From Chloroherpeton thalassium ATCC 35110 (GTDB lineage Bacteria > Bacteroidota > Chlorobiia > Chlorobiales > Chloroherpetonaceae): 64,000 nucleotides of DNA. The stretch covers positions 1,718,001-1,782,000 of the forward strand of contig NC_011026.1 in the NCBI RefSeq assembly GCF_000020525.1, written 5' to 3'. The stretch's first letter is position 1. Each line of letters opens with the position of its first letter. Below, one piece after another: positions 44,620-47,544 of this stretch. The notes beneath the pieces are model-generated. The model saw nothing but the letters and a program-made list of their open reading frames with translations. It was not told the origin of the DNA and did no database searches. The position numbers were made by a program, and so were the translations under genes.

Positions 44620-45642
44620 ATGAATGATACCGAATTGCTCCGTGCAACTGACCGCGCCTACGATATGGTCTTCAAAGGGTTGGTGGAGTTTAGCTGTGTA
44701 AAAGCAGGATTTGAACTGGATTTGTTTAACATTTTGGCCGATGCTGGCTCGATGGAACTTGAACCCCTTGCCGAAAAAGTGGGCGGTGAAGCACGCCGTT
44801 TGGGACAGTTGCTCGTGGCAATGGAGCAAATTGGATTAGTTGAAAAAGATGGTAGCAAGTGGAAATTAACCGAGTTTTCCGACACCTTGTTTGCCAAGCC
44901 GGAAAATCATCCGAGCCACACCATGGAATCAGCTGCGCACTCCATGGGCTTTCTTGCTGAGAACTACTACATGAAGCTGGCCGACGCTGTTCGTGGCAAG
45001 CAAAAGTTCATCAGCCCGGTAGCTTATCCGCCGCAAACCCGCGAAGAAAACGAATATTTTGAAACCATCCACCGCCGCACGGCTTATTTCCCAATCAAAA
45101 TTTTAGGTGAATTTGCCAAATTGGATGGCATCAAACAGATGACAGATGTTGGTGGCGGCATCGGCGATATTTCTGCTTCACTTTGCCAAAAATTCCCAGA
45201 ATTGAACGTGACCTTGCTCAATCTTCCTGGCGCGATTGAGCTCGTCAATGAAAATGCTGCAAGCAAAGGCGTTGGCGATCGTTTAAAAGGCGCTGCCGTG
45301 GATATTTACAAAGAGCCGTTCCCTGAAGGCGACGCCGTGATGTTCTGCCGGATGCTTTATCCGATGAGCGTTCAGTTCAGCACCATGATGATTAAAAAAG
45401 CCTATGATGCCATTCGTCCAGGCGGACGCATCTTGATTCTCGACATGCTCATTTGCGATCCAAACAAGCCAAACTTCGATTACCTCAGCCACTATCTCTG
45501 CGGTATCGGAATGGATTTCTCCGTTCTTGACTTCAAAAAGCACGCAGAATATCCAGGTATTTTGGAAGGCATCGGCTTCACTGATGTCACGAAGGAAGAA
45601 AAATACGACCACGTGCTTTATCAAGCTGTTAAGCCTGCATAA
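44620..45642 (+). CDS. bchU: Bacteriochlorophyllide C-20 methyltransferase
   Basis: A 340-residue SAM-dependent methyltransferase closely resembling Chlorobium BchU over its whole length. It methylates the C-20 position in bacteriochlorophyll c synthesis for chlorosomes. The N-terminal dimerisation/winged-helix region (about 10-110) has ELLRATDRAYDMVFKGLVEFSC, and the catalytic Rossmann domain has TDVGGGIGDISASLCQKFPE (glycine-rich SAM loop near 176), LLNLPGAIELVNENAASKGV and the late LDMLICDPNKPNFDYLSHYL segment. AAGGA lies before the ATG. It is monocistronic with a strong terminator. It shows the host makes bacteriochlorophyll c rather than d. Confidence 0.93.
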   Translation: MNDTELLRATDRAYDMVFKGLVEFSCVKAGFELDLFNILADAGSMELEPLAEKVGGEARRLGQLLVAMEQIGLVEKDGSKWKLTEFSDTLFAKPENHPSHTMESAAHSMGFLAENYYMKLADAVRGKQKFISPVAYPPQTREENEYFETIHRRTAYFPIKILGEFAKLDGIKQMTDVGGGIGDISASLCQKFPELNVTLLNLPGAIELVNENAASKGVGDRLKGAAVDIYKEPFPEGDAVMFCRMLYPMSVQFSTMMIKKAYDAIRPGGRILILDMLICDPNKPNFDYLSHYLCGIGMDFSVLDFKKHAEYPGILEGIGFTDVTKEEKYDHVLYQAVKPA

Positions 45643-45680
45643 GCATTTGGGAAGAAATTTTCTGCCCATCAATATTTTTG

Positions 45681-45717
45681 CCGCAATGTTATTTCAAGCA
45701 ACATTGCGGCTTTTTTT
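45681..45717 (+). terminator. Intrinsic terminator after bchU
   Basis: CCGCAATGTT (45681-45690) pairs perfectly with AACATTGCGG (45700-45709) around a 9-nt loop, followed by seven T (45711-45717). Confidence 0.9.
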
Positions 45718-45867
45718 ATGGCCAGCCATTTTTCTATGTGTCGCAAACGCGGGAGCGATATATTCAAACGGCCATAAAAATGTAAATAAACGTGAGCTTT
45801 CGCAAAATCGGGAGGAATTCGATGCGTCTCCCCCCATTTTCCTAACAGGTATGAATCAAATTAAATA

Positions 45868-45897
45868 TATCTATATCACTATATGGTAATATAGATA
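45868..45897. promoter_or_regulatory. Operator-like inverted repeat upstream of the SQR-like gene
   Basis: TATCTATAT (45868-45876) and ATATAGATA (45889-45897) are exact complements separated by 12 nt. A further CTATAT at 45879-45884 pairs with the same right arm, giving two overlapping dyads. The element ends eight bases before a TAnnTTTG-type -7 motif, so a bound protein would cover the -33 region. A sulfide-responsive repressor or activator site is an inference from position. Confidence 0.5.
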
Positions 45898-45970
45898 AAA
45901 TTGCTTACATTTGATGCAACTGCAAGTTATTTGCATAAAACGATAACTGTGATAAAAAGGAGCAAGACTC

Positions 45971-47170
45971 ATGAAACGAATTTTAGTTTTAGGCGGTGGA
46001 ATTGGTGGCGTAGAAGCTGCTATTTCGCTGGCAAAGGAGTTCAAAAAAAAGAGTGGCTACAGCATCGAACTGATTTCTGACAAGTCCACCTTGTTCATTT
46101 ATCCGCTTTCCATTTGGATTCCAGTTGGTAAGCGAACGCCTCAAGACATTTCGATGCCGCTGGATGAAATCGCGAAATTGCGCGGTTTTCAATTTCGCCA
46201 AGAAAAAGTTGAGCGGATTTTGTCGAAGGAAAATAAGGTGATCACAGACAAGGGCGAGCACCAATACGATTATTTGGTGGTTGCAATGGGTGGCGATAAA
46301 ATGCGCCCCAAAGGAATTGAGCACACGCTTTCGGTGTGCGGTGGCGGGGAAGAATCTCTGAAAATCCGCGACCGATTTTATGAGCTCATCAAAAATGGCG
46401 GCGGCACAATTGCCTGTGGATTTTCAGGCAACCCGAAGGATAAAACAGGCGTGCGCGGCGGCCCTGTTTTTGAAGTGCTCTTCAACATTGATTTCTATCT
46501 GCGTGAAAAAAACGTTCGCGACAAATTCAAGCTTGTTTTTTTCAGTCCGTCGCAAGAAGCCGGCAAGCGTTTGGGCGGCCCTGGATTAAAAGCGCTGCAA
46601 GGGCTTTTCATGCAGCGGCAAATTGAACCCATTTTTGGCAAAAAAATTACCGCGTTTCAGCCAAACGGTATTCTTTTTGAAGACGGCCACTTGCTTGAAA
46701 CAAACTTAACCCTTTTCACGCCAGGCATGAATGGACATCCCGTATTTAAAAACACCGATTTGCCACTGACTGAAGCTGGCTTTATTCCGATTAATGATTT
46801 TTGCCAGGCCGACCCGATGGATGACAGCTGTCACTTTGAGGACATCGATAATTGCTATGTGATTGGGGATAGCACCTATTTTGCTGGACCAGAATGGCGT
46901 GCGAAACAAGGGCATTTGGCTGAAGCCATGGCCAGAGTGGTCGCGAGAAATATTTTCTTGAAAGAATCGGGGCAAATTCAAACGGAAACCTTCAGCGAGC
47001 ATTTGAACATTCTCTGCGTGATGGATTTGGGAAAAGAAGCGGCCTTTATTTTTCGTGATGATAAGCGCGCAATGGCGCCTATTGGTGCTTGGGCGCACTG
47101 GGCTAAAGTTGCATGGGAAAAATATTATAAGCTGAATAAGCGCGGCAAATTGCCAAACGCGCCACTTTAA
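45971..47170 (+). CDS. sqr: Sulfide:quinone oxidoreductase-like flavoprotein
   Basis: A 399-residue FAD-dependent two-dinucleotide-binding-domain protein. The FAD GGGIGG loop is at 8-13 and a second FAD motif VIGDSTYF is at about 297-304. Cysteines at 123, 149 and 349 have spacing close to the catalytic triad of known SQRs (about 127/159/353 in type I). It also has Cys278, Cys287 and Cys295. There is no transmembrane segment; SQRs bind the membrane through C-terminal amphipathic helices. It would feed sulfide electrons into the quinone pool for photosynthesis. The SQR type (I-VI) cannot be assigned with confidence, and an NDH-2-like oxidoreductase is the alternative. AAGGAG precedes the ATG. 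Confidence 0.78.
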   Translation: MKRILVLGGGIGGVEAAISLAKEFKKKSGYSIELISDKSTLFIYPLSIWIPVGKRTPQDISMPLDEIAKLRGFQFRQEKVERILSKENKVITDKGEHQYDYLVVAMGGDKMRPKGIEHTLSVCGGGEESLKIRDRFYELIKNGGGTIACGFSGNPKDKTGVRGGPVFEVLFNIDFYLREKNVRDKFKLVFFSPSQEAGKRLGGPGLKALQGLFMQRQIEPIFGKKITAFQPNGILFEDGHLLETNLTLFTPGMNGHPVFKNTDLPLTEAGFIPINDFCQADPMDDSCHFEDIDNCYVIGDSTYFAGPEWRAKQGHLAEAMARVVARNIFLKESGQIQTETFSEHLNILCVMDLGKEAAFIFRDDKRAMAPIGAWAHWAKVAWEKYYKLNKRGKLPNAPL

Positions 47171-47181
47171 ACAAGACGCAA

Positions 47182-47229
47182 AAAAAGAGCAATTCCGACG
47201 CGTTCTCTGCTGCCGAAATTGCTCTTTTT
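47182..47229. terminator. Bidirectional terminator between the SQR-like gene and the DUF3098-like gene
   Basis: AAAAAGAGCAATT (47182-47194) pairs with AATTGCTCTTTTT (47217-47229), giving T-runs on both strands. It lies between convergent genes. Confidence 0.8.
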
Positions 47230-47262
47230 AATTCTTATTCTTGTCTGATTTGCCAAAAAGCG

Positions 47263-47544
47263 TTAGGCTTTTTCGGCATCAGGCTTGCGATATAAGATCG
47301 CAAATACAACCCAAATGTAAGAGGCAACCAAAAGAATTGGCGACACAGTGAGCGACAAAAAGCCATCAACATCGTTTTCAAGATACATCATCGTGTAGCC
47401 AGCTAAAATTCCCAACAGTCCAATGCTCAAAAACAGATAATTATCTCGTTTCAGCGGCATTCCAAGCTGTTCTTCCTTTTTGACTTTTTCAGCTTGCAAT
47501 TTTCTTTTTTGCTTTGCTTTTGATAATCCTGCTTGAACGCTCAT
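47263..47544 (-). CDS. Small two-helix membrane protein, DUF3098-like
   Basis: A 93-residue protein with a basic N-terminus (about 1-30) and two membrane helices (about 37-54 and 65-84). The segment PLKRDNYLFLSIGLLGILAGYTMMY matches the DUF3098 pattern found in Bacteroidetes and Chlorobi (a basic residue, NY, then IGL...G). Function unknown. It follows the argD terminator (minus strand) and has an ATG start. The small size and family pattern support a real gene. Confidence 0.7.
   Translation of the reverse strand: MSVQAGLSKAKQKRKLQAEKVKKEEQLGMPLKRDNYLFLSIGLLGILAGYTMMYLENDVDGFLSLTVSPILLVASYIWVVFAILYRKPDAEKA

Follow-up and report, generated by a model that had tools for sequence, protein, structure and literature searches.

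A 30-bp palindrome located 73 nt upstream of sqrF in Chloroherpeton thalassium is, with a modest lean in its favour from sequence comparisons, a putative operator for an ArsR-family regulator encoded in trans (arsR, G000:C1:1477815-1478180). The palindrome core recurs before a second sulfide:quinone oxidoreductase (SQR) gene of this genome, sqrD, and a related form lies in the promoter of arsR itself. The arsR-promoter motif is also found before sqrD and dsrC in many related genomes. These related sites support the operator-like appearance that an earlier note on this DNA had described. Its guess at an ArsR-family regulator agrees with the best candidate found, and its remark that no regulator gene is adjacent holds, as the candidate lies about 286 kb away. 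The features listed in Table 1 belong to the window, meaning the whole 64,000-nt stretch analysed (G000:C1:1718001-1782000, from a single-contig genome of 3,293,456 bases).

Table 1. Features upstream of and including sqrF, in window coordinates.
Feature	Position	Strand	Basis or remark
30-bp palindrome, proposed operator	45868..45897		13/15 pairs; outer 9+9 arms perfect
Three overlapping matrix matches, starts 45865, 45873 and 45881	45865..45900		Window ranks 1-3, arsR-promoter matrix of other species
CTATAT-GGTA-ATATAG, probably the second dyad of the earlier note	45879..45894		Sequence, by eye
TACATTTG, -7 element of the earlier note; unsupported	45906..45913	+	TAnnTTTG without strand bias
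AAGGAG, likely sqrF ribosome-binding site	45957..45962	+	Sequence, by eye
sqrF, type VI sulfide:quinone oxidoreductase-like gene, 399 aa	45971..47170	+	Closest solved relatives are sulfide-quinone reductases, E 1.2e-32

The sqrF product is a flavoprotein in which C123 and C349 fall at the places of Cys121 and Cys332 in a studied type VI enzyme. This catalytic cysteine pair, matched by eye, and the similarity to SQRs assign it to the type VI enzymes (SqrF). The gene name follows passages of PMC5061849, which assign to the type VI enzymes a cyanobacterial sqr that resembles the C. thalassium one most closely. Just upstream of the sqrF intergenic region lies bchU (44620-45642). Immediately 3' of bchU, an inverted repeat, GCCGCAATGTT-N9-AACATTGCGGC, with a T-run (45680-45717) is absent from the terminator scan output but is likely a terminator that makes sqrF its own transcription unit.

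The earlier note had proposed a TAnnTTTG promoter, and the TACATTTG element is indeed present. However, TAnnTTTG shows no strand bias in 215 upstream regions of this genome (21 sense vs 23 antisense), and a Bacteroidota-type promoter of this kind was rejected because the element is not sense-enriched upstream of genes. A scan covering the + strand of 45500-47400 gave no sigma-70-type promoter match. The most strand-biased hexamer in the 215 upstream regions (taken from the window and L214-L233) was TATCTT, with 32 sense and 11 antisense occurrences, and it may belong to the promoter generally used in this genome.

The 9+9 inverted repeat described in the earlier note is present with perfect arms, TATCTATAT (45868-45876) and ATATAGATA (45889-45897), separated by a 12-nt spacer. 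Since this spacer is mostly palindromic around the same centre (45882.5), the element is better regarded as a single 30-bp palindrome with the core CTATATGG. The second overlapping dyad of the note can thus probably be recognised (Table 1), although as part of one palindrome and not as a separate dyad. Perfect dyads with arms of at least 9 nt and spacers of at most 20 nt arose in 138 of 2000 dinucleotide shuffles of the intergenic region (45643-45970), in 28 of 2000 shuffles of 45820-45970 and in 88 of 2000 shuffles of the AT-rich segment 45850-45920. The 64-kb window holds 16 such dyads, so the 9+9 dyad by itself is only mildly unusual. Its self-complementarity would also suit an RNA hairpin, terminator or leader structure, but this reading is very improbable: the element is AT-rich with a 12-nt loop, the terminator scan gave no terminator-like site there, and the sites of other genomes share sequence and not pairing alone.

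Searches of the C. thalassium genome indicate that the inner part of the palindrome, and not its outer arms, recurs. With up to 3 mismatches allowed, the exact 9-N12-9 word matched nowhere else in the window (0.01 matches expected). Genome-wide it had three further 3-mismatch matches, and it was rejected as a shared motif for want of enrichment (four matches, itself included, vs four in the control). The inner dyad ATATNACNATATNGTNATAT, allowing up to 2 mismatches, gave eight genome sites vs one in the control. Of these eight, two besides the window site differ from it by a single mismatch. One, at 2853620, lies 37 nt upstream of an SQR-family gene encoding 484 aa, here named sqrD, and the other, at 3261247, lies upstream of a TolC-like gene. 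By hand calculation, the chance that either of two other close sites falls within about 250 bp before one of the three other SQR-family genes is about 5 in 10,000. Sites with 2 mismatches lie 44 nt upstream of a flavodiiron-type protein gene, 73 nt upstream of a Tll0287-like gene that is followed by OsmC-like and thioredoxin-like genes, 230 nt upstream of a CBS-domain gene, upstream of an ABC-type ATPase gene, and at the start of a gyrA-like gene (site 4557, name by eye). The last of these and site 2525425 were judged from their context to be chance or doubtful. Some of the neighbouring genes were named by eye, and the ATATNACNATATNGTNATAT list is a mixture of plausible and chance sites.

A related pattern, ATNACTATATAGTNAT, gave 13 genome sites at up to 2 mismatches vs 4 in the control. 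One of them lies just upstream of an ArsR-family gene, its end being 5 nt from the longest frame of that gene and 68 nt from the ATG used. Sites 463907, 2571625, 3023156, 2544608 and 3109532, which are inside or beside open frames (3109532 inside, by eye), were considered chance or doubtful from their context. Site 1448267 lies 23 nt upstream of a small ribosomal-protein-like frame. The pattern WACTAT-N8-ATAGTW was rejected (16 matches vs 63 in the control).

The ArsR-family gene encodes a product of 122 aa that exceeds the cut-offs of the ArsR/SmtB models PF01022 (49.3 bits, cut-off 22) and NF033788 (84.5, cut-off 55). Orthologues were found in 51 of 61 related genomes (E 2.3e-37 or better, identity at least 54%); that of Chlorobaculum tepidum is at G034:C1:643450-643794. 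A block upstream of arsR, for example TTATAGCTATATAGCTATAA or TTTAATAACTATATAT, is conserved in 28 of the 29 loci searched and also in L116, although part of this conservation may reflect the promoter, because the block overlaps a -10 by eye. Near the second ArsR gene identified in this genome there is no such site (best score 6.4). In three of the loci (L129, L130 and L072), arsR follows ECF-sigma-like and zinc-finger anti-sigma-like genes and precedes Hsp20-like genes (names by eye), while in this genome it is adjoined, convergently, by a gene for a YpdA-type putative bacillithiol disulfide reductase (L072:3251-4237).

Three cysteines are conserved across 29 ArsR orthologues, namely C45 (28/29), C87 (29/29) and C100 (28/29). 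Membership of the SqrR/BigR group of sulfane-sulfur sensors was rejected, as the cysteines are placed differently (the alpha2 cysteine aligns with R42, and I107 lies near the second, alpha5 position, with the conserved C45 and C100 close by) and the BigR equivalog model NF040642 scored 46.8 bits, below its cut-off of 155. With conserved cysteines at other positions, the protein perhaps works like SqrR/BigR without being filed there.

Two steps in this search are circular. It was a pattern derived from the window dyad that first led to arsR, and the expression aligning the arsR blocks was composed after those blocks had been viewed. Evidence independent of the window comes only from the sqrD, dsrC and arsR results in other species. 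A symmetric 20-bp matrix was built from 28 arsR promoters of other species, leaving out, from 30 arsR loci, that of C. thalassium (L093) and one with a frame offset (L116). A combined matrix added eight exact TARCTATATAGYTA sites of other genomes. With the arsR-only matrix, the best three matches of the whole window fell on the palindrome, starting at 45865 (14.9), 45881 (12.5) and 45873 (12.4), and the next match scored 9.8. The combined matrix gave 13.4 at 45865, 13.2 at 45873 and 9.4 at 45881 (next 8.2), and an unsymmetrised version gave 13.2 and 11.8 (next 10.8). The combined matrix gave a score of 18.9 to the arsR promoter of this genome, which is outside the training set.

The observed score at the dyad was reached by 8 and 19 of 1000 column-permuted matrices, and 51 and 34 of 1000 had their best window match there. 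The height of the score is ordinary, as the best window scores of permuted matrices average 13.6 and 13.1, and it is the location that is unusual. In a 400-kb sample of the genome, the combined matrix found two positions scoring at least 13, corresponding to perhaps 16 genome-wide. Support for the single sqrF site is moderate (roughly 0.2-5% across these controls). That the palindrome is a chance dyad of AT-rich DNA, possibly in part promoter sequence, is worth weighing but rather unlikely. In its favour, 9+9 dyads occur in 1.4-7% of shuffles, 90 and 153 of 5000 shuffles of the 66-bp AT-rich core (45850-45915) reach the observed matrix score, and the site is unconserved at sqrF of the closest relative (G001), which has none there (6.0) though it has one at sqrD. 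On the other hand, just 11 and 26 of 5000 shuffles of the whole intergenic region reach that score, and there is the independent link to sqrD.

This link extends to other species. The arsR-only matrix scored at least 10 within 350 nt upstream of sqrD at 23 of 37 loci (this genome included) and of dsrC at 20 of 29 loci, leaving 14 and 9 loci, respectively, with no site by this matrix. None of 300 permuted matrices reached the sqrD or dsrC count (means 3.6 and 4.7, maxima 16 and 17), and background windows gave 6 of 231 and 0 of 115. For sqrD, 50 genomes had a match, from which L143-L153 (mostly relatives about 41% identical) and some genomes were excluded; for dsrC there were 36 genomes, with L207 (at a contig start) and some loci excluded. 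Exact TARCTATATAGYTA sites numbered 11 in the 61 genomes vs 5 in the control. Two precede arsR, two sqrD and four dsrC, and one lies before the flavodiiron gene of this genome; the others are near a fumarate-reductase-like gene (G018) and before an outer-membrane-protein-like gene (G042). Upstream of sqrF itself, only 3 of 27 regions scored at least 10, the window being the highest and the other two having GCATATGC cores.

The earlier note named absence of the motif from all other sulfur genes as a refuting result. This did not occur, as related sites precede sqrD in this genome and sqrD and dsrC in relatives, but in the sox-fcc-type III SQR cluster of this genome (L077) no site scored 12 or more. 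The third SQR of this genome, in the same locus (L077:8025-9269, G000:C1:760024-761268), scores far above the cut-off of the NCBIfam model 'type III SQR, selenoprotein subtype' (661, cut-off 525). At the thresholds applied, genome G029 lacks an arsR orthologue as well as sqrD, sqrF and dsrC. In all three genomes that are without arsR and had their sqrD tested, the site is absent too, though this co-loss is only suggestive because 11 arsR-bearing genomes likewise have no sqrD site. Weak matrix matches about 600 nt before sqr at two cyanobacterial loci (L036 and L037) were left unused. In a C. tepidum-like genome, a match scoring 17.5 lies 59 nt before an ATP-citrate-lyase-like operon (L055:12255-12274, name by eye), which may hint at a connection with carbon fixation.

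A real operator could also belong to another regulator, for example a DUF134 (UPF0251) protein, although this is unlikely for the window site. A second palindrome, TGAGCATATGCTYA, has 18 exact sites in 15 of the 61 genomes vs none in the control (Chlorobiaceae; L268:2055-2074, L234-L251). These sites precede sqrF, sqrD and OsmC-like genes, among others, and for 8 of the 18 a DUF134 gene is no more than 2 kb away. In the C. tepidum-like genome, TTATTAGCATATGCCAATAA is found 17 nt before one DUF134 gene, close to the sqrF sites there, while the other DUF134 locus of that genome has no GCATATGC. C. thalassium carries one DUF134 gene. There is also no sharp line between the two motifs, as sqrD sites grade from TGACTATATGGTTA to TGAGCATATGCTTA: the core is CTATAT-like or TATATAG-like in 16 of the 23 and the GCATATG of the second motif in 7. 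However, the C. thalassium genome has no exact copy of TGAGCATATGCTYA, its DUF134 locus has neither motif, and the window site has the core CTATATGG, so it was not assigned to the DUF134-associated class. No paper on these palindromes in Chlorobiaceae was found.

The preferred reading, an operator of the trans-encoded ArsR, suggests the following mechanism. Without inducer, an ArsR dimer, or two dimers on 8-bp-phased half-sites, would bind the palindrome and block the sqrF promoter, and the regulator would likewise repress sqrD and itself. The 8-bp spacing of the matrix match starts could allow two dimers, although this phasing is in part a result of repetition within the motif itself. Sulfide or its sulfane-sulfur products would then react with C45, C87 and C100, and the modified protein would leave the DNA, inducing sqrF, sqrD and arsR together. 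At the sequence level, the same motif at arsR promoters and before sqrD and dsrC fits an autoregulated repressor. Type VI enzymes are reported, in passages of PMC9666304 and PMC5061849, to serve at high sulfide, which fits an inducible sqrF.

Judging from the motif, sulfur-oxidation genes of many green sulfur bacteria seem to be under the control of relatives of this ArsR. Tentatively, and short of being probable, these bacteria may share one ArsR regulator of sulfur oxidation, with cysteines unlike those of SqrR/BigR, that controls itself, sqrD and dsr genes, while control of sqrF was rewired, resting on ArsR in Chloroherpeton and on the DUF134-associated GCATATGC operator in Chlorobiaceae. 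Searches of an open-access full-text library listed no description of an ArsR regulon for sulfur oxidation in green sulfur bacteria. If correct, the reading names a regulator, its motif and its first targets (sqrF, sqrD, dsrC and arsR), and brings ArsR-SQR regulation to a phylum whose photosynthesis is fed by sulfide oxidation.

Several known systems offer a comparison. The DUF134-associated TGAGCATATGCTYA palindromes are of similar length and also precede sqrF and sqrD, but have a GCATATGC core. Passages of PMC12423496 describe SqrR, BigR, YgaV, HlyU, sHdrR and SoxR as sulfane-sulfur-responsive ArsR regulators. The candidate resembles them in its ArsR fold family, its conserved cysteines and its targets among SQR and other sulfur-oxidation genes, which are putative here. 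Unlike SqrR/BigR, it has no cysteine at residues 42 and 107, and its gene is not adjacent to its putative sqr targets. In cyanobacteria, ArsR-type genes adjacent to sqr, including the C. thalassium-like type VI sqr, have been proposed as sqr regulators (passages of PMC5061849). The gene stands next to its target there and acts in trans, if the present reading holds, in C. thalassium; those passages describe no operator, whereas here a palindrome precedes sqrF.
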